A stretch of 64,000 nt of DNA, taken from assembly GCF_041081105.1 (NCBI RefSeq), contig NZ_CP163528.1, positions 1,798,001-1,862,000 of the forward strand, given 5' to 3'. The number at the start of each line of letters is the position of its first letter. Position 1 is the first letter of the stretch. The notes below the pieces were generated by a model that was given only the letters and a program-made list of their open reading frames with translations, searched no databases and was not told the DNA's origin. A program made the position numbers and the translations under genes. This DNA comes from Promicromonospora sp. Populi (GTDB taxonomy: Bacteria; Actinomycetota; Actinomycetes; Actinomycetales; Cellulomonadaceae). This document shows positions 34,530 to 50,364 of the stretch, in pieces.

Positions 34530-37500
34530 CTAGAGGGTCGGCACCAGGAGCGTCGTCAGCTCGCCCGAGCCCAGGTGGACCATGGCCTTGCCCGGCGTGA
34601 CCTGGGTTGCCACGGCCGAGCGGGACAGGCTCGCGCCCACCAGGTCGCCGTCGAACCGGTCGGACGGGCTGAGCAGCGCGCCCCGTCGGCTCTTCTTGAC
34701 GTCGACCTGCCAGCCCGAGAACCCCTTGGCCACCTCGGAGGCGTCGCCGCCGATGATCAGCCCGCGCTGGTTGTCGGCGGCCGTGCGCAGGTAGGCGCGC
34801 AGCCAGGTCTTCGCCGGGACGTCGGCGACCAGCTCCGCGTCGTCGACGACGAGCACCACCGGCGTGCCGTCCGGGTCCAGGTGCGGCGCCAGGTCCTCCT
34901 CGGTGATCTCCGTGCCCCTGAGCACGGCCCGCACGCCGGCCCGGCCCTCGAAGTCGCGCAGCACGCTCGCGCGCGGCGCGAGCAGCACCACCTGGGTGCC
35001 GCCCCGCAGCAGCGACTCCGTCATCACGGCGAGCATCGTCGAGCGCCCGGACCGCGCGGGCCCGGCCACGATGAACGACGGCGCGTCCCCGGCCAGGTCC
35101 ATGCCGAACGCCGTCAGGTCGTCACCGCCGACGCCGAGCAGCGCCCACATGGGCCGCGCAGCCTCCGGCCCCACGTACTGGTAGGCCGCGTCCACGGTGA
35201 TCGTGGACGGGAGGTCGTCGACCCGGAACGGCCCGGTGCCCGGCGCCACGTCCTCGCGCTCGCGGATCCCGGCCGCGAGCTGGCGTGCCGCCGTCGTCTG
35301 GGCCCGGCCCGCCGGGTCGTCCCCGAGGATCGCCACCTGCACCTCGAGCCCGCTGCCCGACCGGAAGCCGCGCCCGGGCTGGATCTCCTCGGGTAGCTTC
35401 TTGTGGTCGATGCCCGCCATCCCGTAGTCGAACCGGTCGGTCAGGCGCAGCACGAGGGAGTCGTCGGTCAGCACGCTCATCCGGCTCGACATGAGGCTCC
35501 GGTCCCCGGCCACGAGCAGGTGGATGCCCGCGCTCGCGCCGTCCCGCAGCAGCTCCTGGACGATCTCGACCAGCGTGCCGCTGTCGATCTCCCCGTAGGT
35601 GCTCATGAAGCTCTCCCAGCGGTCGATCAGCAGCAGGACGCGCGGTAGGCGGTCGCCCGGCTCGGCGAGCTCGCGCTGTTCGGTGACGCTGGCGAAGTTC
35701 CCCGCCGCGAGAACCTGCTGCCGCCGGCCGAGCTCGGCCTGCAGGCGCGTGAGCAGCCGCTTGGTCCGCTCGGCCTGCCCGCGCTGCACGACGGCGCCCG
35801 TGTGCGGCAGCTCGTTGAGCACTGTCAGCGCCCCGTTGCCGCAGTCGATCGCGTACAGGTGCAGGTCGGAGACCGCCATGCCGCTCGCGGCGGCGAACGC
35901 CGTCGTACGCAGCGTGGTGGACCGGCCGCTGCCCGGCGCGCCGATCACGTACCGGTGCCCGAACTCGTCCAGGTCGATGATCGCGGGGCCCTGCCGCTGG
36001 TCCGACGGCGAGTCCTCCATGGCCCAGCCGAACTGCGACTGGGCCGAGGGCTGGACCAGGTCGGAGAACGCGAGCAGGTCCGGCAGGGCGGGCAGCCACG
36101 GCCGGCGCGGCACGGGCCAGTCGCCCAGGGTCGCGGTCTCGCGCAGCGTCTCGACCAGCGCGGCGAGGTCGGTCTCGACGTTCTCCTGCCGCTTCGTCCG
36201 GGGACGGCGGGGCGCCGGCGCCCCGAGGTCCCCCACCGCAACGCGGCCGACGAACGGCGGTTCCACCTGCACGACGTCGGACAAGGACAGGCGCCGCCCA
36301 CCCACCCGGGCCGACTGGAACGGGATCAGCGAGGTGCTCCCGAGCCGGGCGTAGGCCCGGCCGGGCTGCGACTTGGCGATATCGGCCGCGTCGTTCGCGT
36401 CGATGACGTCCTTGGACTCGCTCTTGTCCGTCATCCGCAGGGCGACCCGGAGGTTGGTGTTGGCCCGGATCTCCGGCGAGATGACGCCGGACGGGCGCTG
36501 GGTGGCCAGGATCAGGTGGATGCCGAGCGACCGGCCCCGCTGGGCGATGTTGACCAGCCCGGCGACGAAGTCGGGCAGCTCGCGGGCCATCGAGGCGAAC
36601 TCGTCGATCACGATCATCAACCGCGGCAGCGTGGGTCCCACGTGCCCCCGGGACTGCGCGTCGAGGTAGTCCTCCAGGTCCTTCGCCCCGGCGGCGGCCA
36701 GGATGTGCTCCCGGTAGGTGAGCTCGGCGCGGAGCGAGTCGAGGGCGCGCTCCACGAGGTGGGAGTCCAGGTCGGTGACCATGCCGACCGTGTGCGGCAG
36801 CTGCTCGCACTGGCTGAACGCCGCGCCGCCCTTGTAGTCCACCAGCACGAAGTTCATGGTCTCGGGGGTGTTCACCACCGCGAGCGAGGCGACGACGGTC
36901 TGCAGGAACTCGGACTTGCCGGACCCGGTGGTGCCACCCACCAGGGCGTGCGGCCCGTCGCGCACCATGTCGAGCGCGAACGGCCCGTCCAGCGACACCC
37001 CCACGACGGCGTTGGTGCTGCCCTTGCCCCCGTTCGAGATCATGCGCCACCGGGTCACCATGTCCTCGGCGCTGACCTCCTCGATACCGAGGACCTCGAC
37101 GAGCCGTGCCGAGTCCGGGATCAGGCCCGCGCCCTCGGAGGCCGTCACGTCGTGCAGGGCTGCGACGGCGCGGGCGACCGGCTCGTACCAGTCGTCCCGC
37201 ACCTCGTCGACCAGGATGGAGCGCAGGTCGTCGGCGTCCTGCCTGCTCAGCGTCATACCGCCGTCGCCACGGGCGAGCGCCACGACCGTGCACTCCTCGG
37301 GCAGCAGCTGCTCGTCGCCGTCCAGGCAGACGACGCTCACGCCGACGCCGGGGCCGTCGCGCAGGATGGAGACGACGCCGGGCAGCGCGCGCAGCCGGCG
37401 GGCACCGTCGAGCACCACCACGACCTGCGCGCCGGCCAGGACCTTGCCGCTCGAACCCTCCATGGCGGCGCGGCGCTGCGTGATCAGCGAGTTCACCTCG

Positions 37501-38936
37501 GCGACCCGCGCCGACAGCGTCTCCGTGGTGGTCCCGATCAGCGCCACGGCCTCCTGGCCGAACGACGGCCGCACGTGCGGCAGCCAGGCCGCCCATGCCC
37601 AGTCCTGCACGTGCTCGGAGCTCGTCAGCACGTAGATCTGCACGTCCCGCGGGCTCTGCAGCACCCCGAGCTGGCCCACTATCCACCGGGCACGCCGGCG
37701 CGGCCAGTCCCCCGGGCCGGCCAGGCCGACCACGCCCGCCTCCCGCAGCGGCACCGTGACCGGCACGGACCGCACGGTCGCGCGGGTCTTGCGCCGGTGC
37801 TCGGGCTCCTCGTTGTCCTCCACCTCGACGCGGCTGGTCGCGTCGGCGAGGCCCAGCCGGACCGTGAGGTGGTCCGTGTCCGTGCTGCGCCGCTCCCAGA
37901 GCCGGCGCGTCGGCGTGGTGGCGATGATCCTCAGCTCGGCGGCGCCCGGGCTGGAGACCCGGCGTCGGTGCTGCTCGCGCCGCACGGCGTCCAGGACCTC
38001 CTCCTCCAGCGCGGCCCGCTCCTCCGCGTGCTGCTTGAGGCGGTCCTTGTGCGTGACCACGCCGTTGCGCTTCTGCATCCACCAGTTGCCGAGGCCCATC
38101 AGCGGCGACGCCAGCGCGAACATCAGGTAGTACGGCTGCTGGAACACGATGGCCATGACGATGCCCAGCACCGCGGGCATGGCCATGCCGAGCCACGGCA
38201 GCGGGTTGCGGCTGGGGGCCGCCGGCTCGGACGGCAGGCGGAAGTGGGTGGCCGGCATCGGCGGCAGCAGCCGCGGCGGCCGGTTGTAGTCGAGGTGCCC
38301 CGGCTCGGCGGCGGGCCGCAGGTCGGCGTCGGGCCGCGTGGCCGGCTGGACCGTCAGCACGCTCGGGCCGATGCGTACCTGCGTGCCCGCGGGCCACGGC
38401 GCCTCGTCCTCGCCCAGCGGCTCCTCCGACCGGTCCAGGTGGACCGGTCGCCCGGCGGACCGGGGATCCGGCAGGCGCCGCACCCGCACCCCGCCGTCCA
38501 GCGCGACGACGACGGCGATCGCGGGCAGCCCACCCTCGCGCGGCTCGTCCACCCGGACCCGGCCGTCGGGGCCGACCTGCAGCACGGACTCCCCGACGCC
38601 GAGCCGCGCCACCGCACCGGTGCCCAGGCCGCCGGTGACACACAGGTCGACCGGGCCGCCCGACGGGCCGCTCCCCGGACCGGGGTCGGTGAACGTGACA
38701 ACGGCGCCGTCCCGGATGCCCGAGTGGGCGGCGAGCAGCTCGTCGCTCGTGCGGCCGGCGTCCCGCCCGGCATGATCCCGCACTGGGCGGCCGTCCACGT
38801 ACATGGTGCTGCCCCGGGGGGCACCCACCTCGGCGGACAGCCGCTCGGCCAGGTCCGCGACCTTGGTGCGCTCGTCCAGCTCCAAAGACAGGAGCGCTTC
38901 ACGGACCCCGTGCCGCGTGGTGATCAGAGCGTGCAT
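34530..38936 (-). CDS. Type VII secretion FtsK/SpoIIIE ATPase, EssC/EccC-like
   Basis: 1468 aa. The N-terminal ~200 residues contain a ubiquitin-like start (ALITTRHGVREALLSLELDE) and an FHA-like segment (VARLGVGESVLQVGPDGRVR), then two membrane helices at about 245-285 (AMPAVLGIVMAIVFQQPYYL). Three FtsK-type ATPase domains follow: Walker A GGTTGSGKSEFL near residue 667 with Walker B LMIVIDEFASM, GAPGSGRSTTL near 998, and a third, less canonical GPARSGRSTML near 1289. Length and N-terminal architecture resemble Firmicutes EssC more than mycobacterial EccC. It is the motor that recognises and moves WXG100 substrates. It is the last gene of the locus, 1 nt after the discoidin-domain gene, with GGGGAGG upstream. 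Confidence 0.94.
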   Translation of the reverse strand: MHALITTRHGVREALLSLELDERTKVADLAERLSAEVGAPRGSTMYVDGRPVRDHAGRDAGRTSDELLAAHSGIRDGAVVTFTDPGPGSGPSGGPVDLCVTGGLGTGAVARLGVGESVLQVGPDGRVRVDEPREGGLPAIAVVVALDGGVRVRRLPDPRSAGRPVHLDRSEEPLGEDEAPWPAGTQVRIGPSVLTVQPATRPDADLRPAAEPGHLDYNRPPRLLPPMPATHFRLPSEPAAPSRNPLPWLGMAMPAVLGIVMAIVFQQPYYLMFALASPLMGLGNWWMQKRNGVVTHKDRLKQHAEERAALEEEVLDAVRREQHRRRVSSPGAAELRIIATTPTRRLWERRSTDTDHLTVRLGLADATSRVEVEDNEEPEHRRKTRATVRSVPVTVPLREAGVVGLAGPGDWPRRRARWIVGQLGVLQSPRDVQIYVLTSSEHVQDWAWAAWLPHVRPSFGQEAVALIGTTTETLSARVAEVNSLITQRRAAMEGSSGKVLAGAQVVVVLDGARRLRALPGVVSILRDGPGVGVSVVCLDGDEQLLPEECTVVALARGDGGMTLSRQDADDLRSILVDEVRDDWYEPVARAVAALHDVTASEGAGLIPDSARLVEVLGIEEVSAEDMVTRWRMISNGGKGSTNAVVGVSLDGPFALDMVRDGPHALVGGTTGSGKSEFLQTVVASLAVVNTPETMNFVLVDYKGGAAFSQCEQLPHTVGMVTDLDSHLVERALDSLRAELTYREHILAAAGAKDLEDYLDAQSRGHVGPTLPRLMIVIDEFASMARELPDFVAGLVNIAQRGRSLGIHLILATQRPSGVISPEIRANTNLRVALRMTDKSESKDVIDANDAADIAKSQPGRAYARLGSTSLIPFQSARVGGRRLSLSDVVQVEPPFVGRVAVGDLGAPAPRRPRTKRQENVETDLAALVETLRETATLGDWPVPRRPWLPALPDLLAFSDLVQPSAQSQFGWAMEDSPSDQRQGPAIIDLDEFGHRYVIGAPGSGRSTTLRTTAFAAASGMAVSDLHLYAIDCGNGALTVLNELPHTGAVVQRGQAERTKRLLTRLQAELGRRQQVLAAGNFASVTEQRELAEPGDRLPRVLLLIDRWESFMSTYGEIDSGTLVEIVQELLRDGASAGIHLLVAGDRSLMSSRMSVLTDDSLVLRLTDRFDYGMAGIDHKKLPEEIQPGRGFRSGSGLEVQVAILGDDPAGRAQTTAARQLAAGIREREDVAPGTGPFRVDDLPSTITVDAAYQYVGPEAARPMWALLGVGGDDLTAFGMDLAGDAPSFIVAGPARSGRSTMLAVMTESLLRGGTQVVLLAPRASVLRDFEGRAGVRAVLRGTEITEEDLAPHLDPDGTPVVLVVDDAELVADVPAKTWLRAYLRTAADNQRGLIIGGDASEVAKGFSGWQVDVKKSRRGALLSPSDRFDGDLVGASLSRSAVATQVTPGKAMVHLGSGELTTLLVPTL

Positions 38937-38937
38937 G

Positions 38938-40770
38938 TCATTCGCCTCCCCGCCGCACGGCGGTCTGTTCGTCGAAGCGCACGTCGGGCAGGAACCCGCT
39001 GCGCAGCCAGCCGTCGTCTCCAGCGGTGAACCGCCATTTCGCCGACGGCGCGGAGCCGAGCACGATCACTACCCACGCGAACTCCGGGTTCGCGAACCGG
39101 GCCGCGAGCAGGTCCTGCTGCGCTGCCGACGGCGCCTGCGACAGCACCAGCACCCCGCCGTCGCCGACCTCCAGCTCGGGGAAGATCTGCTCGATCCCGG
39201 CCAGGTGCTCCACCTGCTCGGGCTGGGGCAGGCCGTTGCCGATCATCACGACCCGCGGGTCGTTCGACCACGGGCTGCCGGTCAGCTCGCCCAGCCAGCG
39301 GCGCAGCACCTCGTGCCGCACCCGGGTGGGCCCGTCCAGGCTGACCACACCCCTGGCGACCGAGAAGTCCACCAGCACCCGGCCCGTCTCCCCCATGCCG
39401 AGGTTGATCAGCCGGGAGAACCGCGCCGTCGAGCCCTCCGACGCCGCCCCCGACTGCAGCTTGGCCAGCGGAGCCGACCAGCTCTGCCCGTCGTCGCTCA
39501 CCGTCCACGGCTCCGGCGCGGGTGACGCCGGGTTGGTCAGCCGCAGGCGCATCAGGCTGCCCTCGATGAACACCCCGGTCATGCCGGGCACCTCCAGGCC
39601 GTCACGCTCGCACGCCGCGATGAGCACCCGCAGCGCGCGGTCGACCGTCCACGCCGCCGACGTGTCGGTGCGCAGCAGGCTGTCGTCGAACGGCTCGTTC
39701 CGCTTGCGACGCCGCAGGAGCCAGAACCCCAGCCCGGTGAGCAGGGCGAACACCAGCACCGCGGCCGCCACGGCGCCGATGGTGCGCCAGACGCCGGGAC
39801 TGATCGCCGGCCCGGTGTCCGCCACCTCCGCCAAGGGCTCCGGCGACGCCGACTGCGCGGCCGAAGCGGACGACGAGGGCGAGGCAGACGGCTCGTAGCC
39901 GGGCAACGGACCGAACTCCAGGCCCTCGCCGGTGGCGTCCGCCGGCATCCGGAGCACCCAACCGGCCTGCAGCGTCCGGGGGTCGGTCAGGTACGCGCCG
40001 TCCGGCTGCCGGTGCCCCTGGGTCAGCTCCGCGATCTCCGGGTACCGGTCCCGGTCGCCGAGGAACCGCTCGGCGATGTCGTTCAGCTTCTCGACGTTGT
40101 CGTCCGCCGTGGCCTTGACGACGTAGTACAGGACGGAGCCGGGCGGCCCGCTGCGGCTCGGCTCGGGTTCGGGCTCGTCCGACGGCGTTGGCGAGGCCGG
40201 GGTGGTCTCGCTCGCCTCGGCGCTCGGCTCTGGCTCCGCGGTGTCCGTCGGGTCCGGAGCGGCCTCGACGGGCTCTGGCTCGGGCTCACCGAAGACGCGC
40301 ATCTCCCAGATCGAGTTGCCCGCCGTGCCGGACCGCTGCGTGGAGTACATCTGCACGTACCGGCCCTCGCCGAGGATGTTGAAGACGTCCCGGCCGCCGT
40401 CACCCTCACCGAACCAGTGCGTCTCCCACGTCTCGCCGTCGTCCGAGAGCTGGATCGAGAAACCCGTCGAGTGCGAGACCTCCCAGTCGATCTCCACCCG
40501 GTGCACGGTGGTCCTGCGCCCCAGGTCTATCCGGATCCACTGCGGGTCGGCGAAGGCGCTCGACCACCGGGTCTCCGGGTTGCCGTCGAACGCGTTGCGC
40601 GCCGGGAAGTTGCTGTTCTCCAGCGAGGACGCCACCGCGGGCTGGCCCTGCGAGAGCAGCACCACCTCGGCCTCCCCCGCCTTGGCCGGTAGGGCGACGG
40701 CCGCGAGGAGCGCCGTGAGGGCGGTGATCGCCAAGACCCGCAGCAGGCCGCGGGCCGGTGACTCACTCAC
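38938..40770 (-). CDS. Membrane protein with discoidin (F5/8 C) and LysM-like domains, type VII locus
   Basis: 610 aa from GTG 40770, which overlaps the upstream stop by 8 nt. Signal/anchor about residues 9-32; F5/8 type C domain 36-161 (FDGNPETRWSSAFADPQWIR is its hallmark); Pro/Glu/Ser linker; LysM-like segment 213-277 (LNDIAERFLGDRDRYPEIAE); membrane helix 330-353 followed by RRRKR; cytosolic domain 354-610 (RWLGELTGSPWSNDPRVVMI, GNGLPQPEQVEHL). The second half closely matches the next gene. The outer parts may bind carbohydrate or peptidoglycan; the inner domain may contact the ATPase. It could replace EccB or EccE, which are not recognisable here (inference). Confidence 0.85.
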   Translation of the reverse strand: MSESPARGLLRVLAITALTALLAAVALPAKAGEAEVVLLSQGQPAVASSLENSNFPARNAFDGNPETRWSSAFADPQWIRIDLGRRTTVHRVEIDWEVSHSTGFSIQLSDDGETWETHWFGEGDGGRDVFNILGEGRYVQMYSTQRSGTAGNSIWEMRVFGEPEPEPVEAAPDPTDTAEPEPSAEASETTPASPTPSDEPEPEPSRSGPPGSVLYYVVKATADDNVEKLNDIAERFLGDRDRYPEIAELTQGHRQPDGAYLTDPRTLQAGWVLRMPADATGEGLEFGPLPGYEPSASPSSSASAAQSASPEPLAEVADTGPAISPGVWRTIGAVAAAVLVFALLTGLGFWLLRRRKRNEPFDDSLLRTDTSAAWTVDRALRVLIAACERDGLEVPGMTGVFIEGSLMRLRLTNPASPAPEPWTVSDDGQSWSAPLAKLQSGAASEGSTARFSRLINLGMGETGRVLVDFSVARGVVSLDGPTRVRHEVLRRWLGELTGSPWSNDPRVVMIGNGLPQPEQVEHLAGIEQIFPELEVGDGGVLVLSQAPSAAQQDLLAARFANPEFAWVVIVLGSAPSAKWRFTAGDDGWLRSGFLPDVRFDEQTAVRRGGE

Positions 40771-42208
40771 CGGCACGCCGCACCGCCATCTGCTCGGTGT
40801 ACCGGACATCAGGGAGGAACCCGCTGCGCAGCCAGCCGTCGTCGCCTGCGGTGATCCGCCACTTGGCCGACGCCGACTCGCCCAGCACGATGACCACCCA
40901 GCCGAAGGCAGGGTTCGCGAACCGCTCGGCGAGCATGTCCTGCTGCACGGCCGACGGCGCCTGCGACAGCACCAGCACCCCACCGTCGGCGGCGTCCAGC
41001 GCAGGGATCACCTGCTCGATCGCCGAGAGGTGCTCCACCTGCTCGGGCTGGGGCAGGCCGTTGCCGACCATCACCACGCGCGGGTCGTTCGACCAGGGGT
41101 TGCCGGTCAGCTCACCCAGCCAGCGGCGCAGCACCTCGTGCCGCGCGCGGGTGGGTCCGTCCAGGCTGATGACGCCGCGCGCCGTGGCGAAGTCCACGAG
41201 CACCCGGCCCGTCTCCGCCACGCCGATGGTCACCAGCCGCGCGAACCGCGCCGTCGACTCCTCCGACGCCGGCGCAGACTGCAGCTTCGCCAGCGGCGCG
41301 GACCAGCTCTGCCCGTCCTCGTTCGCCACCCACGGCGCGGGCGCCGGGGAGACGGGGCTCGCCAGGCGCAGGCGCATCGCCCCGCCCTCGATGAACACAC
41401 CGGTGACCCCGGGCAGGTCCAGGCCGTCGCGCTCGCACGCGGCGATCAGCACGCGCAACGCGCGGTCGACCATCCACGACGCCGAGGTGTCGGTGCGCAG
41501 CAGGCTGTCGTCGAACGGCGCCTCGCGCCCGGCCCGACGCCGGCGCAGCAGGAACAGCACGCCGAAGGCCACGGCACCCAGCACCACGACGGCGCCGAGG
41601 GTGACCAGCACGGGCGTCAGCCAGGACGAGCCGCTCGCCGCGTCCTCGGCGGGGGCGGCCTCGCCGGAGGGCGCGGTGGACGACGCGTCCGACGGCGCGG
41701 CGGACGACGCGTCGGCGGACGGCTCAGCCGAAGCGCCGTCGGCCGACGCGCTCGGCTCCGCCGCGGGGCCGCCATCCGCCGGGCCCGTGGGCAGCACGCC
41801 GATCTCGACGCCCTCACCCTCGGCGTCGGCCGGCAGCTGCATGACCCAGCCCGGCAGGACGGCTTCCGGGTCGGTCAGGACGCCCCCGTCGGGCTGGACG
41901 CGGCCCTCGTTCAGCTCGAAGATCTCCATGTACCGGTTGCCGTCGCCGAGGTACCGCTGGGCGATCTCGAACAGAAACTCCGGCGTGCCGTCCGAGTCGA
42001 GCTGCATCACGTAGTACGGGACCGCCTCGCCCGTCTCGTCCATGGCGAGGCCGGCGTGCGCCGGGCCGGCGTGGGCCGAGCCGGACACGGTGCGCACCAG
42101 CGCGGGACCCGTGCCGGCCGGCGAGGCGGCAGCCACGGGTCCCGCGAGTGCTGTGGTCAAGAGGGTGGCCGCGACCAGGGCGGCTATGGCGCGGTAGGCG
42201 TGGTGCAC
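40763..42208 (-). CDS. LysM-like membrane protein, type VII locus (paralogue of the 38938-40770 product)
   Basis: 481 aa, GTG start with ACGGAGC upstream. Signal peptide about 1-28, LysM-like segment about 62-127 (FLFEIAQRYLGDGNRYMEIF), long Ala/Ser/Glu-rich linker, membrane helix about 196-222 with RRRRAGR after it, then a cytosolic domain nearly identical in layout to its neighbour (RTDTSASWMVDRALRVLIAA, GNGLPQPEQVEHL). It lacks the discoidin domain. The two arose by tandem duplication. Confidence 0.83.
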   Translation of the reverse strand: MHHAYRAIAALVAATLLTTALAGPVAAASPAGTGPALVRTVSGSAHAGPAHAGLAMDETGEAVPYYVMQLDSDGTPEFLFEIAQRYLGDGNRYMEIFELNEGRVQPDGGVLTDPEAVLPGWVMQLPADAEGEGVEIGVLPTGPADGGPAAEPSASADGASAEPSADASSAAPSDASSTAPSGEAAPAEDAASGSSWLTPVLVTLGAVVVLGAVAFGVLFLLRRRRAGREAPFDDSLLRTDTSASWMVDRALRVLIAACERDGLDLPGVTGVFIEGGAMRLRLASPVSPAPAPWVANEDGQSWSAPLAKLQSAPASEESTARFARLVTIGVAETGRVLVDFATARGVISLDGPTRARHEVLRRWLGELTGNPWSNDPRVVMVGNGLPQPEQVEHLSAIEQVIPALDAADGGVLVLSQAPSAVQQDMLAERFANPAFGWVVIVLGESASAKWRITAGDDGWLRSGFLPDVRYTEQMAVRRAGE

Positions 42209-42275
42209 GGTAGCTCCGTCTTCAGGTGTGTCGCGTCAGTCGGGTTGTTCTTGCGTCGGGCGGGAGCAGACGCGC

Positions 42276-42989
42276 TCAGGCAGAGCCGGGAACGCTCCGC
42301 TCCGGCAGCTTCAAGGGATTGGTTCCCGGACCGGCCCAGCGGAAGGTGGTCATCACCGCATCGAAGAAGAACACCATGGCCTCCGCCAGTCGCTCGGTGT
42401 TCTCGCTGTTCCAGATCGTCGTGAAGGACAGGACCAGCCACTCGCCGTCGGCCTCGTCCCGGGAGATCGCGTAGAGCACCTGCCGGGTCGACAGCTCCAG
42501 GTCCTCGCTCCGCATGCCGTGCTCGGTGTGCAGCACCCGGACGCCAGGACGCCCGTCAACCTCGACCAGCTCGCTCTCCTCGTACCCGTCGCTCAGGATG
42601 CTGGTCACGATCCGCATCGGGTCGGTGCCGACGTCGCTGACCACCTCGATCTCCGCGATCGAGCCCGGGACGATCACACCCTCCATCGGCTCGGTCGGCA
42701 GGTAGACCGCCCCGGTACCGGCGTCGCGCGCCTGGCCGAGGGTCTTGTGCAGCTCGTCCCGGAGCATGTGCCGGAAGGGCTCGACCTTGTCGCGGGGCAT
42801 GGAGTCCGGCAGCGCCCGCGCGACGACCTCCTCGACCGCCTGGTCCAGCTCGCGCTGGCGCCCCTCACCGGTCGGGAACCGGGCCCAGCCCGGCGGCAGG
42901 AGCATGACCCAGGCGTCGGTCGGCTTACCGTTCTGCTCCTGCCCCTCGGTCGGCTCGGCGGTCTGCTCGTTCACTGGCTGCTCGCTCAC
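42276..42989 (-). CDS. Type VII locus companion protein, DcrB/Mog1-like (full-length copy)
   Basis: 237 aa, GTG overlapping the upstream stop. No signal peptide; cytoplasmic. Key stretches: WVMLLPPGWARFPT, YLPTEPMEGVIVPGSIAEIE, VEVDGRPGVRVLH, ADGEWLVLSFTTIWNSENTE, FFDAVMTTFRW. This pattern resembles the DcrB/PsbP/Mog1 fold. Compared with its paralogue at 45714-46280, it contains an extra ~50-residue helical insert (QRELDQAVEEVVARALPDSM onward). It may act as a chaperone for the secreted partners or as an immunity factor (inference). Confidence 0.78.
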   Translation of the reverse strand: MSEQPVNEQTAEPTEGQEQNGKPTDAWVMLLPPGWARFPTGEGRQRELDQAVEEVVARALPDSMPRDKVEPFRHMLRDELHKTLGQARDAGTGAVYLPTEPMEGVIVPGSIAEIEVVSDVGTDPMRIVTSILSDGYEESELVEVDGRPGVRVLHTEHGMRSEDLELSTRQVLYAISRDEADGEWLVLSFTTIWNSENTERLAEAMVFFFDAVMTTFRWAGPGTNPLKLPERSVPGSA

Positions 42990-43651
42990 TGTGTGCTCCG
43001 GGTGACCTTGACGGCCGACAGCAGACCGACGATCGCTTCGAGGATCGTCGGGACGAGAACCAGGTCCTGGCTACGCCAGACCAACGCGGTGTCCACCACC
43101 ATGTCCGGGAGCTCGGTGCGCCGGCCCGCGGCCACGGTCACCCATGCGCCGCCCGTCGTCTCGTCGATGTCGATCCGGGTGACCTGGATCCCGTCGCCGT
43201 CGGGCAGCTCGGGATACTCGATGCTCGGCGGGCTCACCGGGTTCCCGCCCGTCGCCCCGAGCACAGTCATGAACACGTCGTCCGACTCCGTGGGGTCACT
43301 CATACCGACCGTGACGAGCACGGGCACCGGGCCGCGGTCCAGGAGATCAAAACCGGCCATGGCGCGCGCACCCTCGGTCGCGGCCTCGTCAGCGAACCGC
43401 ACCAGGCTTTTGACAGTCTGCGTGAGCGAGCTACGCACCGCACCCACCTGGCCCGCATCGGGCTCGGTTTCGGGCCCGGTCGCGGACTCGTCGGCGGCCC
43501 CCGGCAGGAACGACTCGAGCAGCAGCTCGACGACCTCCCCCTGCCATGCGTTGACCGACTCGGCCGGCTCGGTCGCTGTGGAGGGCACCACCAGCCAGCC
43601 GGCCGGCGGTTCGATGGTCCAGGTCCAGGCCAGACCGTCGACGGCGGTCAT
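42986..43651 (-). CDS. Type VII locus companion protein (second type), copy 1
   Basis: 221 aa, soluble. WTWTIEPPAGWLVVPSTATE at the start; LDRGPVPVLVTVGMSDPTES, SIEYPELPDGDGIQVTRIDI, GGAWVTVAAGRRTELPDMVV near the end. It is the paralogue of the 46277-46981 product and is always followed by the DcrB-like companion through a 4-nt overlap. Both companions share the GW start and the terminal strand-helix layout, suggesting an ancient common fold. Function unknown. Confidence 0.78.
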   Translation of the reverse strand: MTAVDGLAWTWTIEPPAGWLVVPSTATEPAESVNAWQGEVVELLLESFLPGAADESATGPETEPDAGQVGAVRSSLTQTVKSLVRFADEAATEGARAMAGFDLLDRGPVPVLVTVGMSDPTESDDVFMTVLGATGGNPVSPPSIEYPELPDGDGIQVTRIDIDETTGGAWVTVAAGRRTELPDMVVDTALVWRSQDLVLVPTILEAIVGLLSAVKVTRSTQ

Positions 43652-43696
43652 GCCCCGCCCCTACATCTCGTCGTTGTCAAGAAATCGGCTCCCGGC

Positions 43697-44971
43697 TCAG
43701 GTGGTGAGGTGGTTGTACTCGTAGTCGGTCTCGCCTGTCCAGTTCCCGCGGGCATCCTCGCCAGGGAAGCTGGTCGGCGGCACCGCACCCCACAGACCGC
43801 TGATCAAGCCGGAGAGCATCGCACCGGGACCGGCGACGTACACCCACGGCTTGATGGTGAAGTTGGCCCCCCAGAGTCCGAGCAGGCTGAGCTCCTTGAG
43901 CCCGCCGAGACCGAACGCTCCGCTGAGCGACCAGGACTTGATCGGGGCGACGATGGACGCCCAGCCGGGGAGCTTCGTCGAGATGATGATCGAGATCTTC
44001 TGGAGCTGCAGGGGCTTGAAGATCAGGCCGCCCATGGTGCCGATGAACTTGGTCCCACCAGCCTTTCCGGCGAACACAGCGCCCTGGGCCGCCTTCAGGG
44101 ACGTCGTGATCGACTTCGCCACGACCGCCCCGACCCCGGCAGCGGCGACGCCGATGACGCCGAGGATGACGCCCATCCAGCTCGCCTCGCCCTGAGCGGC
44201 GAGCACGATGGAGGCGACCACGCTCACGACTCCGACGATCAGGCCGGCCAGCGCGAGGGCGCCCACCCCCGGCAGGAGTATCGCGAGCACCGCGAGAGCC
44301 ATGCCGATGTAGCCCAGGATCTCGACGAGCGCCTTGAGGAACTTGTTGAACCCGTGCACGAACGCTTCCCAGCCGCTGTGCTTTAGCCCGTCGTCGCCCC
44401 AGTTCTCCTTGATCTTGGTCGCCGCTCGCTCGGCGGCACCATCGAGCGCCGACATCGCCGCGACCGCGATGGCCTTCGCCGCCGCCAGCTCGCCCTTGGC
44501 GCCCTCGATCTTGCTCGTCCGGTTCTGGGACTCCTGCTTCTCCTGGTCGGTGAGCGGCGGCGCGTCGTCCGGCCGGTCCGCGTTCACCGGGTCCGGCAGG
44601 CCCTCCGCGCCCTTCTGGGCCGCGGCGGCGTCCTCCGCCTTCGCCAGGGCCTTGCCCGTCTCCGACCGCGCCGTCTCCAGCTCCGGCCGGTACGCCGCCA
44701 GGGCGGCATGCACGTCCTCGTAACGACCGGCGGCCGCGGCCAGGTGCTCGTGGCTCTCCTCGGCGCGCCCGCGCATGGCGTCGGCCGACTCACCCTTGAG
44801 CAGGGTCTCGTCGCCGTCGCCGATCTTCTTGAGGAGCGCCGCCTGCGTGGTCATCATCTCGGCGATCTCTTTGTAGTGCTTGATCACCGCGTCCAGGCCA
44901 GACGCCTCGGCCGGCACAGGGTCGTCGTCGTAGTCCAGCAGATGCCATTCACCCACGCGGGCGGCGCTCAT
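43697..44971 (-). CDS. Large type VII substrate-like protein, copy 1
   Basis: 424 aa. The N-terminal ~200 residues are helical (VIKHYKEIAEMMTTQAALLK, SADAMRGRAEESHEHLAAAA), resembling the WXG/LXG-type export region. NWGDDGLKHSGWEAFVHGFN follows, then hydrophobic segments at roughly 215-290 (YIGMALAVLAILLPGVGALA). The C-terminal ~130 residues differ from the paralogue at 46978-48411 except for a shared IKPWxY motif. It lies directly after a WXG100 gene. It could be a secreted effector or pore-like protein whose tail varies (inference). Confidence 0.8.
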   Translation of the reverse strand: MSAARVGEWHLLDYDDDPVPAEASGLDAVIKHYKEIAEMMTTQAALLKKIGDGDETLLKGESADAMRGRAEESHEHLAAAAGRYEDVHAALAAYRPELETARSETGKALAKAEDAAAAQKGAEGLPDPVNADRPDDAPPLTDQEKQESQNRTSKIEGAKGELAAAKAIAVAAMSALDGAAERAATKIKENWGDDGLKHSGWEAFVHGFNKFLKALVEILGYIGMALAVLAILLPGVGALALAGLIVGVVSVVASIVLAAQGEASWMGVILGVIGVAAAGVGAVVAKSITTSLKAAQGAVFAGKAGGTKFIGTMGGLIFKPLQLQKISIIISTKLPGWASIVAPIKSWSLSGAFGLGGLKELSLLGLWGANFTIKPWVYVAGPGAMLSGLISGLWGAVPPTSFPGEDARGNWTGETDYEYNHLTT

Positions 44972-44997
44972 CGAGTCTCCTTCTGTTCACTGAGGCT

Positions 44998-45279
44998 CTA
45001 CTCGCTCTCGAGCGACTTCGCCAGCTCGATCTCGGTGTTGTTCCAGGTCTCGGCGGCCTGCTCCATCTTTCCCTGGAGGTCCTTGAGGTTCTCCTGGAGC
45101 TTCTCCCGCTTGACCCACCAGCTGTCGACGAAGTCGCCCATGGCGTTCTTCACCGTACGGTGGCCCCAGATGTCGCCGCCGTCCCACAGCTCCTTCATGT
45201 TGTCGAGCTCGTCGACGACGGACTTGAGCTGGGTGGCAGCGTCGTCGACCGCGATCGAGGTGACGACCAGGTCTGCCAC
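44998..45279 (-). CDS. WXG100 family protein, copy 1
   Basis: 93 aa, ADLVVTSIAVDDAATQLKSV, the WXG turn at LWDGGDIWG, then a second helix ending WNNTEIELAKSLESE. The C-terminal W-x-x-x-E resembles the YxxxD/E export signal with Trp in place of Tyr. A conserved DSWWVKREKL follows the turn. It probably pairs with the neighbouring helical protein or the second WXG100-like protein as an export dimer. Confidence 0.9.
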   Translation of the reverse strand: MADLVVTSIAVDDAATQLKSVVDELDNMKELWDGGDIWGHRTVKNAMGDFVDSWWVKREKLQENLKDLQGKMEQAAETWNNTEIELAKSLESE

Positions 45280-45283
45280 GGGA

Positions 45284-45580
45284 CTACTTGTTCAGCGCGT
45301 TGGCGAGCTCTTCATCGGTCTTGCGCAGCGCCTCGGCAGCCTGCTTGAGGTACTCGCCGATACCGGTCAGACCCTCCATGACCTGCTTGCCACCCTTGTC
45401 GAGCTCCTTGTAGGACTCGTCGAACCGCTTGGAGGACTTGTCCGTCACGTAGCCGTCCTGCACCAGGTTGTCGACCAGCGAACGCAGCTGGTCGAGCTTG
45501 TGCTGCATGTCGTCGGACTCCTGCTTGATGCGCTGGGCCGCGTCTTCCATCTGCTGGAAGGTCACATTGATGTTGGCCAT
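45284..45580 (-). CDS. WXG100-like protein of a second type (turn motif GYVTD)
   Basis: 98 aa, ATG with GAGAGGAC upstream. Two amphipathic helices (VTFQQMEDAAQRIKQESDDM; FDESYKELDKGGKQVMEGLT) flank a turn with DGYVTDKSS instead of WXG. This subtype is familiar from actinobacterial ESX-like loci. It is present once, between the two duplicated cassettes, and may be the shared core substrate. A TACGAT -10-like box at 45619-45624 suggests its own promoter. Confidence 0.88.
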   Translation of the reverse strand: MANINVTFQQMEDAAQRIKQESDDMQHKLDQLRSLVDNLVQDGYVTDKSSKRFDESYKELDKGGKQVMEGLTGIGEYLKQAAEALRKTDEELANALNK

Positions 45581-45618
45581 GATCAGTCCTCTCGGTTTGC
45601 CTCGTGGAAAACAGCAGG

Positions 45619-45624
45619 ATCGTA
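45619..45624 (-). promoter_or_regulatory. Candidate internal promoter in the type VII locus
   Basis: TACGAT on the minus strand lies about 39 bp before the WXG100-like start, inside the only sizeable gap of the locus (45581-45713). It would allow the right-hand cassette and the ATPase section to be transcribed separately. No clear -35 box. Confidence 0.35.
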
Positions 45625-45713
45625 CACGAACCGGACTTCCATGGAGTGAATCCCTGGAAACCGTTTGTCACGGCCAGCGGCCGCCGTCGGGACGGCGCAC
45701 TCAGGCCGCTCGT

Positions 45714-46280
45714 TCACGCCGAACCGGGCACCTCCCGCTCCGGCAGGCTCACCGGCCGGGCACCGTGCCCGGTCCAGCGAAACGTGGTCAGCACCGCGTC
45801 GAAGAAGGTGACCAGCACCTCGGCGAGCCGCTCGGTGCCCGGGCTGTTCCAGGTGGTGCGGAAGCTGAGCACCAGCCAGTCGCCGTCGGCCTCGTGCCGG
45901 GAGACGACATACGTCACCTCGCGCGCGAAGACCGCAGGCCCGCCATCTGCGGCCGGCGGCTCCTGCACCGTGCTGGATACCCGCACGCCTGGGCGCCCGT
46001 CGAGCTCGACGAGCTCGTTCTCCTCGTCCGAGTCGCCCAGGATGCTCGTCGCGACCTCGACCGGGCTGCGGCCGACAACACCGAAGAGCTCGGTCTCGGT
46101 GATGGAGGCGGGGACCGTCATGCCCGCCATCGGCTCGGTCGGGAGGTACATCGCTCCCGCATCGGTAGCGATCCGCGCCCAGCCGGGCGGGAGCAGGAAG
46201 GCCCACTTGTCGGTCGGCTTGCCCCCGGTCTGCTCGGCCGTCCGACGCTCGCCCATCGGCCCCGCTACGGACCGCGTCAT
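45714..46280 (-). CDS. Type VII locus companion protein, DcrB/Mog1-like (short copy)
   Basis: 188 aa, ATG overlapping the upstream stop (ATGA). Same order of motifs as the 42276-42989 product (WAFLLPPGWARIAT, YLPTEPMAGMTVPASITETE, VELDGRPGVRVSS, ADGDWLVLSFRTTWNSPGTE, FFDAVLTTFRW), but the ~50-residue helical insert between the first two motifs is absent: GWARIATDAGAMYLP here versus an insert in the paralogue. An in-frame deletion, or an insertion in the other copy, is the simplest explanation. Confidence 0.78.
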   Translation of the reverse strand: MTRSVAGPMGERRTAEQTGGKPTDKWAFLLPPGWARIATDAGAMYLPTEPMAGMTVPASITETELFGVVGRSPVEVATSILGDSDEENELVELDGRPGVRVSSTVQEPPAADGGPAVFAREVTYVVSRHEADGDWLVLSFRTTWNSPGTERLAEVLVTFFDAVLTTFRWTGHGARPVSLPEREVPGSA

Positions 46281-46981
46281 GCCGCGCTCCGCGTGATCAG
46301 CACGGCGGCCAGCAGCTCGTCGAGCCACTCCACCATGGCGGCGCCCAGCAGAAGGTCCTGGGTGCGCCAGACCAGCACTGTGTCCACCACGGCGTCCGGG
46401 TGCTCGGTGCGCCGCCCAAGGCCCACGCTCATCCAGGCGCCCCCGGTCTCCTCGCCGATGTCGAGGCGGACCACCCGCACCCCGTCGCCGTCGGGCACCT
46501 CGGGGTACTCGACGGTGGGTGGCGCGATGGGATAGCCGCCCGTCGCACCCAGCGCGGCCAGCAGGCCGTCGTCGGGCTCGGCCGGGTCGCTCACCCCGAC
46601 CGCGACGAGCACCGGAACCGGACCACGGCCCAGCACCCCGAGGCGGGCCGCCACGCGGTGGCCGTCCGGGGCCATGCCGTCGGCGAACGCCCGGAGGTTC
46701 GCCACCGCCTCGGCGGCCATCCGGTCGAGGGCCGTGCGCGCCTCGTCGTCCAGCTCAACTGGGTCCGCGGGGCTCGCCGACGCCTGCAGGTCCCCCGGGT
46801 CCGCCGGCCGCGGTTCGATCGACTCCCGCACCGCCGCGGTGGACTCGCGCTCCCACAGCGTGATGCTGTCGGGCGTGTCGAGCCCGGTCGCCGGGACCAC
46901 GAGCCACCCGTCCGGCGGGTCCACCCGCCAGGTCCAGCCGGCCAGGTCGGTACCGGGTGCGCCGTTGATCGTCGTCGTCAT
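46277..46981 (-). CDS. Type VII locus companion protein (second type), copy 2
   Basis: 234 aa, ATG overlapping the upstream stop (ATGA). WTWRVDPPDGWLVVPATGLD, LGRGPVPVLVAVGVSDPAEP, TVEYPEVPDGDGVRVVRLDI, GGAWMSVGLGRRTEHPDAVV: the same motif order as the 42986-43651 product. Soluble, no signal. Tight coupling to the large substrate-like gene upstream and the short companion downstream argues that the three act together. Confidence 0.78.
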   Translation of the reverse strand: MTTTINGAPGTDLAGWTWRVDPPDGWLVVPATGLDTPDSITLWERESTAAVRESIEPRPADPGDLQASASPADPVELDDEARTALDRMAAEAVANLRAFADGMAPDGHRVAARLGVLGRGPVPVLVAVGVSDPAEPDDGLLAALGATGGYPIAPPTVEYPEVPDGDGVRVVRLDIGEETGGAWMSVGLGRRTEHPDAVVDTVLVWRTQDLLLGAAMVEWLDELLAAVLITRSAA

Positions 46982-48411
46982 AGGACCGGGTTCTCCCCGT
47001 ACAGACCGCTGTAGTCGGCGTCCCGCCAGCCCTGGAGGTCCCAGCGCAGGTCGTTCGGGTTGAAGTTCGACGGGTTGACGAGGCTGAACGGCCGCATCGA
47101 CCAGCCGAACGTGTACGAGATGGGGCCGATGTACATCCACGGCTTGATAGCGAAGCCCGTGACACCAAGCTGGCCGAGAGCCGCGGTGATCTTCTGCACG
47201 TCCTTGATGTCGCTGATGCCGATGAGGCGGTCCCAGCGCCAGGTGCCGCCGCCGATGCGGTCCATGAACCGGCTGAAGTCCGTCGCGAGGTACTTCGGGT
47301 TGGTGATCTGCCACCAGCCGGGCGACACGCTGGTCTTGCCGGCAAACGTCGACCAGCCCTGGAGGTTCTTCACCCACGGCGTCATCGACACCGTCATGTC
47401 GTTGATCCTGCGGGCGATGTCCGGGTTCCGGCCGATCTGGAGCAGGCCCCGCATCCACTCGCGGTCGTTGATCATGCCCTGCAGGCGACCCATGTCCTTG
47501 GACCAGGTCGACCCGCCCTTCGCCAGCAGCGAGCCCTGGATGTTCTTCAGCGAGCCGGCCATCTTCGCCGCCACCCCGATCAGGCCCAGGCTGAGCACGC
47601 CGATGATGACACTCAGCCAGCTGCCTTCGCCCTGGACCGCCAGGATGAAGCTGGCCGCCACCGAGACCACGGTGACGATCACGCTCAGCAGGGTCAGCAT
47701 GCCCAGGCCCGGGATGAGGATGCTCAGCACCGCCAGCGCCATCCCGATGTACATCAGGATCTCGACGAGCTTCTTCAGGAACTTGTTCAGCTTGTGCAGG
47801 AACGCCTCCCAGCCGCTGTGGTTCAGCCCGTCGTCGCCCCAGTTCTCCCGGATCTTGTTCGCCGCGGCCCGGGCGGCGCCGTCGAACCGCTCCATGGCGG
47901 CGCGGGCCTTCGCCTTCGCCGCCTCGAGGTCGCCCTTCGCCTCGTCGATCTTGCCGGTGCGGCTCTCGGACTCGCGCTTCTCCGCGTCGGTGAGCGGCGG
48001 CGCGTTGTCCGGCCGGTCGGCGGTCACGGGGTCGGGCAGACCCTCGGCGCCCTTCTGGGCGGCGGCCGCGTCCGTGGCGTCTGCCAGAGCCAGGCCCGTT
48101 TCCGAGCGCGCGTACTCCAGCTCCGGCCGGAACGTACGCAGCGCGTCCCGGACGTCGGTGTAACGGGCGGAGGCCTTGTTCAGCGCGTCCGCGCTCTCCC
48201 GGGAGCGTTTGCGCATGGCGTCGGCGGCCTTGCCCTTGAGCAGGGTCTCGTCGCCGTCACCGATCTTCTTGAGCAGCTTCGCCTGGGTGGTCATCACCTC
48301 GGCGATGGCCTCGTAGTGCTTGATCACCGGGTCCAGGTCGCCGACGGCGGCCGGCACGGGATCGGAGTCGTAGTCCAGGAGCTGCCACTCCCCGGCCCTG
48401 ACTTCGGTCAT
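46978..48411 (-). CDS. Large type VII substrate-like protein, copy 2
   Basis: 477 aa. N-terminal half parallels the 43697-44971 product (VIKHYEAIAEVMTTQAKLLK, NWGDDGLNHSGWEAFLHKLN, YIGMALAVLSILIPGLGMLT). The C-terminal ~190 residues diverge (DREWMRGLLQIGRNPDIARR, KTSVSPGWWQITNPKYL) and share only IKPWMY near the end. Conserved head, hydrophobic middle and variable tail recall polymorphic effectors, but no known toxin motif is evident. It follows a WXG100 gene by 10 nt. Confidence 0.8.
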   Translation of the reverse strand: MTEVRAGEWQLLDYDSDPVPAAVGDLDPVIKHYEAIAEVMTTQAKLLKKIGDGDETLLKGKAADAMRKRSRESADALNKASARYTDVRDALRTFRPELEYARSETGLALADATDAAAAQKGAEGLPDPVTADRPDNAPPLTDAEKRESESRTGKIDEAKGDLEAAKAKARAAMERFDGAARAAANKIRENWGDDGLNHSGWEAFLHKLNKFLKKLVEILMYIGMALAVLSILIPGLGMLTLLSVIVTVVSVAASFILAVQGEGSWLSVIIGVLSLGLIGVAAKMAGSLKNIQGSLLAKGGSTWSKDMGRLQGMINDREWMRGLLQIGRNPDIARRINDMTVSMTPWVKNLQGWSTFAGKTSVSPGWWQITNPKYLATDFSRFMDRIGGGTWRWDRLIGISDIKDVQKITAALGQLGVTGFAIKPWMYIGPISYTFGWSMRPFSLVNPSNFNPNDLRWDLQGWRDADYSGLYGENPVL

Positions 48412-48421
48412 CGTTCTCCCC

Positions 48422-48703
48422 CTACTGCTCGTCGAACGATGCGGCCAGCTCGATCTCCAGGTTGTTCCACTGCTCCGCAGCCTGTTCCATCTTCTTCTGG
48501 AGGTCTGAGAGGTTGGTGGTCAGCTTTTCCCGCTTGACCCACCACTTGTCTATGAAGTCGTCCATCGCCGACTTCACCGTGTCGTGGCCGAAGACGGCGC
48601 CGCCCTCCCACAGCTTGTCCATGTTCTTGAACTCGTCGACGATCGCCGCGAGCTGGTCGGCGGCCTCGTCAACGGCTACCGAGGTGACTACGAGGTCGGC
48701 CAT
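48422..48703 (-). CDS. WXG100 family protein, copy 2 (first gene of the type VII locus)
   Basis: 93 aa, ADLVVTSVAVDEAADQLAAI, WXG turn at LWEGGAVFG, DKWWVKREKL after it, and WNNLEIELAASFDEQ at the end. Clear paralogue of the 44998-45279 product, with the same length. ATG preceded by GAGAGG. It opens the leftward type VII locus. Confidence 0.9.
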   Translation of the reverse strand: MADLVVTSVAVDEAADQLAAIVDEFKNMDKLWEGGAVFGHDTVKSAMDDFIDKWWVKREKLTTNLSDLQKKMEQAAEQWNNLEIELAASFDEQ

Positions 48704-50219: not shown

Positions 50220-50364
50220 CGGATCTCCTGGGTGAGGTCCTCGGGCACTTCGCATCGAGCACCCGTGCCCGCGAGCGGGCCGCTGCTGAAACTAGGTTCA
50301 GCGGCATCGGGCGGCGACCGCTGCCCGTGATACCTCGGCGCGCCTCACCAGCGTGGCGAGGGCG

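Follow-up and report, generated by a model that had tools for sequence, protein, structure and literature searches.

Twelve genes lie in a row on the minus strand of Promicromonospora sp. Populi, at 34530-48703 of a 64,000-nucleotide stretch of its genome (the window), in the order W1-L1-A1-B1, W0, W2-L2-A2-B2, M1, M2 and C (Table 1). The intergenic distances range from -14 to +133 nt, and the twelve genes probably form one operon. The repeated proteins are 68% (W1/W2), 50% (L1/L2), 49% (A1/A2) and 47% (B1/B2) identical, with a segment of roughly 50 residues of B2 missing from B1, and M1 and M2 are 63% identical over 420 aligned positions. An earlier note, made from the letters alone, had proposed this gene order and a type VII secretion (T7SS) identity; both were recovered, with all twelve genes as ordered and on the minus strand.

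Table 1. Genes of the locus, with positions in the window
Gene	Length (aa)	Positions	Strand	Features
W1	93	48422..48703	-	EspC/WXG100-like below Pfam cut-off; C-terminal HxxxD/ExxhxxxH pattern (WNNLEIELAASF)
L1	477	46978..48411	-	Candidate substrate; N-terminal T7SS-signal-type region
A1	about 234	46277..46981	-	Companion A; one hydrophobic stretch near C-terminus, 211-229
B1	188 (or 180 from 46256)	45714..46280	-	Companion B
W0	98	45284..45580	-	WXG100 core protein (EsxA/TsxA type); GYVTD turn; C-terminal LRKTDEELANAL
W2	93	44998..45279	-	Second W copy
L2	424	43697..44971	-	Second L copy
A2	221	42986..43651	-	Companion A
B2	237	42276..42989	-	Companion B
M1	481	40763..42208	-	N-terminal signal-peptide-like hydrophobic stretch, LysM-like, TM 200-218, ~250-residue C-terminal domain
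M2	612	38938..40776	-	Signal-peptide-like start, F5/8 type C (discoidin), LysM-like, TM 336-354, M1-type C-terminal domain
C	1468	34530..38936	-	EssC/EccC-like motor: ubiquitin-like ~1-85, FHA-like ~90-200, TM stretch 246-264, then FtsK/SpoIIIE ATPase domains

The profile of C matches the solved structures of EccC, EccC5 and YukB, and C scores 556 bits against the EssC equivalog model TIGR03928 (cut-off 778.4) and 408 bits against TIGR03924, also under the equivalog cut-off. Its FHA-like region was assigned from where it lies and from FHA-type matches of related proteins to Pfam. In the tree, C falls in a clade of 24 rows together with a T7SSd-type TsdC (SH-aLRT 100; its placement within the clade is left open by the tree), to which it is 39% identical over 1287 aligned positions. 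Stretches with a related ATPase numbered at least 579 in a genome scan. The earlier implication of a stand-alone gene set is not supported, as relatives of the ATPase are common and its clade contains a T7SSd-type TsdC.

The ubiquitin-like component of these systems is a separate protein, EsaB/YukD, in T7SSb and part of EccD in ESX. The first ~85 residues of C are, by profile searches that agree in both directions, a YukD/EsaB-type ubiquitin-like (Ubl) domain fused to the motor. The ATPase N-terminal profile aligned to the EccD/YukD domains with an hhalign E of 4e-8, and with 2e-6 after three EccC/EssC-type rows of 68 were dropped from the Ubl profile (single comparisons), while unrelated families gave 0.13-0.88 against the Ubl profile. 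Two EccD YukD domains were top-scoring among 1,595 other N-termini with the ATPase-derived profile (33.0 and 29.5 bits); with its cleaned version they scored 30.2 and 24.4 bits, the next best of the 1,595 reaching 15.0. With the YukD profile, 61 of 116 ATPase N-termini exceeded the 99th percentile of background, as did 59 of 106 once EccC/EssC types were removed and two of the ten N-termini of those types. The cleaned Ubl profile still gave TsdC 23.3 bits, and an EssC control dropped from 13.3 to -1.2 bits. Against the YukD profile, C by itself reaches only 2.2 bits, so the call for C is carried by its ATPase family. N-terminal profile comparison revealed the same fusion in a T7SSd-type locus. 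The survey PMC11217815 reports no ubiquitin-like protein for T7SSd and calls the exact role of the small ubiquitin-like T7SS component unclear; a Ubl domain on the motor would explain this odd lack in a simple way. Such a natural fusion may also tell the working partner of the Ubl domain and provide a single polypeptide for study.

Of the small proteins, W0 scores 67.5 bits against the Pfam WXG100 model PF06013 (cut-off 27.3) and is 36% identical over 96 positions to TsdA of the T7SSd-type locus. W1 and W2 score 18.9 and 22.5 bits against Pfam EspC, both under the cut-off of 23.5, and 14.0 and 11.9 bits against WXG100. The earlier WXG100 labels are thus right for W0, the protein with the GYVTD turn, but not for W1 and W2, which have only EspC matches below cut-off; W1/W2 as the core WXG100 pair was dropped, W0 being the core. 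Both W1 and W2 carry the C-terminal export pattern, HxxxD/ExxhxxxH, taken from PMC3935865. It is present in 79 of 107 W proteins, against a mean of 9.7 and a maximum of 19 in shuffles, and the counts (79/107, 55/95) were unchanged with or without histidine allowed at hydrophobic positions. W1 is a likely co-secretion partner of L1.

Hydrophobic stretches occur at 211-229, 241-259 and 264-282 of L1 and at 239-257 and 266-284 of L2. Against the T7SS_signal model PF21725 the two score 17.6 and 20.2 bits, under a cut-off of 27 that is exceeded by the relatives L182 and L158 and by the L protein of the T7SSd-type locus; L188 and L161 stay under it, and L136 has no listed PF21725 match. The L-family gene of the T7SSd-type locus matches the L profile with an E of 2.6e-25. 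In four relatives, the L amino-terminal region is joined to RHS repeats; the match of these proteins to the L profile spans positions ~1-313, with whole-protein E values of 5e-37 to 1e-55, by which the L amino-terminal region is judged homologous to that of RHS proteins. Because of this junction, L is probably a secretion substrate. No recognisable toxin end was found in L1 or L2. Some cargo relatives carry toxin-like ends, and the locus is probably a protein-secretion system, perhaps one for competition between bacteria, to which the RHS-bearing relatives point.

The window and 19 loci retrieved via B2 supplied the profiles of W, L, A and B, which were then tested on loci fetched via the ATPase alone. 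Of at least 579 ATPase-related stretches, the best 80 were covered, so the survey favours near relatives; all 80 loci are actinobacterial. Beside the ATPase, W recurred in 69 of the 80, L in 66, B in 61 and A in 21. W is immediately upstream of 67 of 91 L genes, and B lies at most three genes downstream of 55 of the 91. This recurrence in loci fetched through the ATPase indicates, at the level of profile matches, that the W-L-A-B gene set is more than chance. Two or more L genes occur in 25 of the 66 L-containing loci among the 80, and the duplication of the cassette, singled out in the earlier note, was dropped as an unusual feature, being common among relatives. Its proposal of two export modules on one motor fared better, the best reading being substrate-plus-partner modules, some of whose L relatives carry RHS repeats. 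W-L-A-B may represent a substrate module that is common in actinobacteria and includes two helper families without a name.

A, B and their families gave no significant match in Pfam, NCBIfam or PDB searches. Families A and D align with an hhalign E of 1e-11 and D and B with 8e-8, the direct similarity of A and B being weak at 0.0017 (single comparisons); A and B are distantly related to each other, and probably chaperones. UniRef names the B relative P0079 DUF1795, a family without a Pfam match among B-family or mixed-family members. The PsbP protein 2xb3 (E 0.21) and the PsbP-type sll1418 (2lnj, E 0.37) ranked first in two profile searches, and neither did in a third. EspG binds PE-PPE, and A and B could instead be chaperones of the EspG type; they would then bind the W-L helical bundle at its tip and would not shield a membrane hairpin. 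They adjoin the substrate, as expected of a chaperone, the UniRef name of the B relative P0042 mentions EspG and the incomplete name of P0066 begins alike (on a basis unknown), and EspG-like proteins exist in other T7SS types according to PMC11217815. This is nonetheless unlikely: an EspG profile of 27 sequences gave hhalign E values of 0.12, 0.46 and 0.28 against A, B and D, the level of unrelated families, so that no homology to EspG was found; none of 61 B-family and 28 mixed-family members has a listed EspG Pfam match; and among the 20 of 28 first-look candidates scored in the genome itself, none matched PF14011 at E<=0.001. Still less probable is that L1 and L2 are toxins with membrane-acting hairpins, from which A and B protect the producer as immunity proteins. 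A and B do lie directly downstream of L, as in polymorphic toxins, and the cassette holds no other immunity candidate, but immunity proteins usually vary along with the toxin end, whereas the B family recurs with L proteins of differing lengths and C-termini, and A/D and B are conserved families with a distant relationship.

The genome search revealed no EccB (PF05108), which the same search found in four of seven other genomes, and no YukD/EccD domain (PF08817) at E<=0.01, the Bacillus subtilis control being positive; at E<=1 a single match appeared (E 0.196, 15 bits, cut-off 27). Among the twelve genes, neither EccE nor mycosin was recognised, EssA, EssB and EsaA had no match, and no TsdD-type kinase and, judged by size and Pfam, no TsdH-like or Ig-like TsdI-like gene was present. 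The locus had been described as neither classical ESX nor Firmicutes Ess, which the models tested (EccB, YukD, EssC) bear out, and standard Ecc genes outside the set, named as a ground for abandoning that description, were sought across the genome through EccB and the EccD/YukD domain and not found. Among further window proteins scanned, a PASTA kinase at 61660-63561 is the sole kinase. On sequence grounds, the locus is a T7SSd-related variant and not a classical ESX. It could also be T7SSd as already described, with its other components encoded in another part of the genome or unrecognised, in line with the shared ATPase clade, the likeness of W0 to TsdA and the L-family gene of the T7SSd-type locus; this seems improbable, given the kinase, TsdH-like and TsdI-like genes missing from the twelve and the presence of M1 and M2, neither listed for T7SSd.

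M1 and M2, previously described as duplicated membrane proteins, do have LysM-like, TM and predicted cytoplasmic parts in common, but M2 has the extra discoidin domain. The LysM match of M1 (E 2e-4) is below the cut-off of the model, and the M family had no significant match in the PDB profile search. Only 34 of the 80 relative loci, themselves the best of at least 579 stretches, have the M domain. Longer proteins are also matched by the M1 sequence; the single one scanned carries a BTAD domain. The membrane proteins and companions, to which no function had been put, are thereby partly described, their roles being predicted. A role of the locus outside protein export, with its ATPase and partners serving signalling or DNA transfer, would suit the FtsK/SpoIIIE type of the ATPase and the longer M1-matching proteins but is highly improbable in view of the WXG100 protein, the export-signal pattern, the EccC/EssC-type matches and the substrate-like L with its RHS relatives.

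The preferred reading, with a probability of roughly 0.7, is a T7SSd-related T7SS in which the ubiquitin-like component would be fused at the front of a Ubl-FHA-TM-ATPase motor, W0 would be the core WXG100 protein of the machine, and each W-L-A-B cassette would be one substrate module. W would pair with L through the helical N-terminal region of the latter and give the C-terminal export pattern, while A and B would keep L export-ready, most likely by covering its hydrophobic hairpin. M1 and M2 would tether the machine to the wall, with the LysM and discoidin domains outside and the common domain inside. As judged from its genes, this Ubl-fused motor system is a little-described type VII machine serving two copies of a cargo-plus-helper set. 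A wider reading, tentative and short of even odds, is a large, largely undescribed actinobacterial T7SS branch, T7SSd included, in which Ubl is the N-terminal domain of the motor and hairpin substrates are escorted by an Eag-like A+B chaperone pair. The main text of PMC11217815 does not contain 'Streptomyces', 'Micrococc' or 'LysM', and its supplementary lists may include some of these ATPases.

The T6SS Eag chaperones (DUF1795) resemble A and B only in possible function, as helpers beside cargo with hydrophobic hairpins; there is no significant sequence match. With T7SSa (mycobacterial ESX) the locus shares the motor family, a WXG100 protein and a ubiquitin-like domain in the machine, but its genome has no detected EccB or EccD/YukD domain, and Ubl sits on the motor. 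T7SSb (Firmicutes Ess/Yuk) is alike in having a motor with an FHA-like region, one core WXG100 protein and long substrates beside small helical partners, and differs in that no EsaB/YukD exceeds the cut-off, EssA, EssB and EsaA are unrecognised among the twelve, and the EssC score falls short of its cut-off. A second T7SS-like locus of the same genome, C1:4303001-4322500, also has a motor with an N-terminal Ubl-like region and an FHA domain, but it carries a kinase, a PP2C phosphatase and an RDD-FHA protein, its ATPase lies in a sister branch, and it has no W, L or B profile match. T7SSd (TsdA, C, D, H and I of Olsenella/Bifidobacterium, as given in PMC11217815) has its ATPase in the same well-supported clade, a single core WXG100 protein whose turn reads G(Y/F)VTD, an L-family candidate substrate and the N-terminal ATPase Ubl, the latter found here in a T7SSd-type locus; in place of its kinase, TsdH-like and TsdI-like genes, the window locus has M1, M2 and the A/B cassettes.

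The locus is real and conserved. In the 5.22 Mb, single-contig genome of Promicromonospora sp. Populi, gene calls agree with an earlier note that had read twelve leftward genes from the sequence: two cassettes, each of an EspC/WXG100-like protein (W), a candidate substrate (L) and two companions (A and B), with a core WXG100 protein (W0) between them, followed by two membrane proteins (M1 and M2) and an EssC/EccC-like motor ATPase (C). The intergenic gaps are -14 to +133 nt. The window spans C1:1798001-1862000 of this genome.

Coordinates of the locus, its surroundings and related loci
Feature	Position	Strand	Remarks
Twelve-gene locus	window 34530-48703	minus	W1 L1 A1 B1 / W0 / W2 L2 A2 B2 / M1 M2 / C
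Secretory lipase gene	window 48906-50255		upstream of W1
Secretory lipase gene	window 50439-51800		upstream of W1
Protein with ice-binding-like domain	window 8442-9509		
PASTA-domain serine/threonine kinase	window 61660-63561		~13 kb off locus
M-related LysM-type protein	L007:1006-3843		BTAD domain at its end
BTAD-NB-ARC-TPR protein	L068:10925-13873		adjoins M
Second T7SS-like locus, same genome (L231)	G000:C1:4303001-4322500		
Third FtsK/EssC-like ATPase, same genome (L232, 7394-10600)	G000:C1:2785001-2803000		no T7SS profile match near

Gene by gene, the two cassettes are 47-68% identical. For B2 and M1, the closest named homologues belong to Promicromonospora and Antribacter. Trees of L and B, each of 22 rows, separate the window's first copies from its second, each grouping with same-position copies of some Promicromonospora loci, with the first-position cassettes of loci L116 (part) and L122 placed elsewhere. 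Because copies group by position, the trees indicate that the duplication is older than the Promicromonospora species compared, with uneven supports within the family. In L070 and L126, too, the locus has a lipase relative upstream.

Of 396 genomes of the order, 34 hold a relative of B2 (E<=0.01), and of 149 genomes, 40 hold one of M1; many M1 matches fall in frames of ~1,000-1,400 residues, and the one scanned carries a BTAD domain. A scan with the ATPase alignment gave at least 579 stretches encoding a relative, the best 80 of which are all Actinomycetota by title. A survey of gene order around such ATPases, which the earlier note had proposed for Micrococcales, found the cassette again: in these best 80 of at least 579 (E<=0.01, best label per gene), W occurs in 69 loci, L in 66, B in 61, A in 21 and D, a protein of other cassettes, in 17, along with WXG100 in 72 and the M domain in 34. 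Counting any match at E<=0.001 gave W 73, L 66, B 60, M 34, A 21, D 13 and kinase 25. The W, L, A, B and D profiles derive from the window plus 19 loci to which B2 had led (nine with the ATPase within the fetched stretch), so that their recurrence is for the most part, but not entirely, independent, as the two sets have genera and at least one genome in common; the 80 loci were included in building the WXG100, C and M profiles. Within the same best 80, W lies directly 5' of L in 67 of 91 L genes and B at most three genes downstream in 55 of 91, while 25 of the 66 L-bearing loci have two or more L genes. In six genomes of family f19 (L074, L076, L077, L079, L081, L085), five of them also with the ATPase, the cassette adjoins rpsL-rpsG-fusA-tuf-like genes, as judged by N-termini.

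L1 and L2 are candidate substrates, which would be secreted and act as such. The likeness of their N-terminal region to PF21725 is below cut-off and exceeds it in the relatives L182 and L158 and in L of a T7SSd-type comparison locus; the short C-termini of L1 and L2 match no recognised family. RHS repeats follow a ~300-residue region matching the L profile in four L genes, which are 1,457-1,645 residues long; none were found in L161, the further long L gene scanned. W0, W1 and W2 end in HxxxD/ExxhxxxH, a pattern of WXG100 proteins according to PMC3935865. Among W proteins, 79 of 107 carry it (shuffle mean 9.7, maximum 19), and among W0 proteins, 55 of 95 (mean 9.3, maximum 18). A terminal YxxxD/E motif is absent from the three ends, the single YxxxD of W0 (YKELD) lying away from its end.

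A and B have no significant match in Pfam or NCBIfam, and their role as companions is presumptive. A is related to D (hhalign E 1e-11) and D to B (E 8e-8), the similarity in a direct comparison of A with B being weak (E 0.0017), and EspG likeness of A, B or D was not detectable by profile comparison. Two companion searches, whose alignments share members, were headed by the PsbP protein 2xb3 (E 0.21) and by sll1418 (2lnj, E 0.37), which we take to be of PsbP type; neither is significant, and a third search returned neither. In T6SS, the transmembrane helices of effectors are shielded by Eag chaperones (PMC7773334, PMC12881460), and work cited in PMC12881460 gives these chaperones a Mog1p/PsbP-like fold, so that such an Eag-like fold may serve as a lead for A and B. 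Each of M1 and M2 combines a signal-peptide-like start with a LysM-like region and a single TM stretch, and M2 has a discoidin domain in addition. Since the relatives P0195 and P0197 carry PF13385 in its place, the outer domain of the family looks exchangeable. In L068, a separate BTAD-NB-ARC-TPR protein adjoins M.

The motor appears to begin with a ubiquitin-like domain (Ubl). A profile of 68 motor N-termini (~85 residues) matched a profile of 21 EccD/YukD domains at hhalign E 4e-8, and at E 2e-6 after removal of three EccC/EssC-type rows, against 0.13-0.88 for unrelated families in six control comparisons. When the first profile was run on 1,595 further N-termini of the fetched loci, the two EccD YukD domains came top (33.0 and 29.5 bits; next 17.5), as they did with the cleaned one (30.2 and 24.4; next 15.0). 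Conversely, the YukD profile placed 61 of 116 ATPase N-termini beyond the background 99th percentile (5.9 bits), 59 of 106 versus 2 of 10 of EccC/EssC type. With a profile of 14 kinase-branch sequences only, 75 of 79 window-branch N-termini exceeded its 99th percentile, and C reached 17.8 bits (background maximum 10.2); C by itself gave just 2.2 bits with the YukD profile, which counts against the call. As controls, the N-termini of one EssC and one EccC scored 13.3 and 2.5 bits with the first profile, of which both were members, but -1.2 and -1.9 bits once it had been cleaned. TsdC of the T7SSd-type locus reached 23.3 bits with either profile, more than all background N-termini except the two YukD domains. 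For T7SSd, PMC11217815 reports having found no ubiquitin-like protein; a motor-fused Ubl would explain this, the TsdC start here coming from three near-identical loci of one genus, not Olsenella uli. The third ATPase of the genome (L232) scored 17.0 and 20.7 bits with the first and cleaned profiles. The later P-loops of C near residues ~1000 and ~1292, GSGRS and RSGRS, have arginine for the usual Walker A lysine and are conserved in the family alignment.

Compared with T7SSa (ESX), the genome gave no EccB match in a search positive in four of seven others (G017, G444, G467 and G499; none in G283, G374 and G138) and no YukD domain at E 0.01, a laxer search giving one match of 15 bits, below cut-off; the earlier note had likewise recognised neither EccB nor EccD. 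Compared with T7SSb (Ess), C falls short of the EssC equivalog cut-off, as it does of that for EccC, while matching both models. By the models tested, the locus is thus judged neither ESX nor Ess, as that note had held. The comparison locus, from three genomes of one genus (G138, G082, G259), was identified as T7SSd from its gene set (L280, L281) against PMC11217815: a TsdA-like WXG100 protein, a kinase (Pfam), two proteins assigned by eye, one of 147 residues and one of ~1,800 with hydrophobic ends, then the ATPase. Two large actinobacterial branches (17 and 34 rows) had appeared in an earlier 66-row FastTree that lacked TsdC, and a 45-ATPase tree with EccC as its root shows the same two. The branch sister to that of C holds the ATPase of the second T7SS-like locus, where it is accompanied by a kinase, a PP2C phosphatase and an RDD-FHA protein; of the order's 396 genomes, 247 have a relative of this ATPase (E<=1e-60), a count that includes other EccC/EssC-type matches. 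The ATPase of that locus (L231) is of Ubl-FHA type, and the locus also encodes an unmatched 232-residue protein, a weak WXG100-like protein and two proteins of 363 and 314 aa that share their N-terminus. In the 45-ATPase tree C shares with TsdC a 24-row clade (SH-aLRT 100), within which the placement of TsdC is not resolved. In conclusion, judged from sequence comparison, this is a type VII secretion locus, a variant related to T7SSd in which the Ubl is fused to the motor, the membrane proteins are of LysM type and the putative substrate modules are duplicated.
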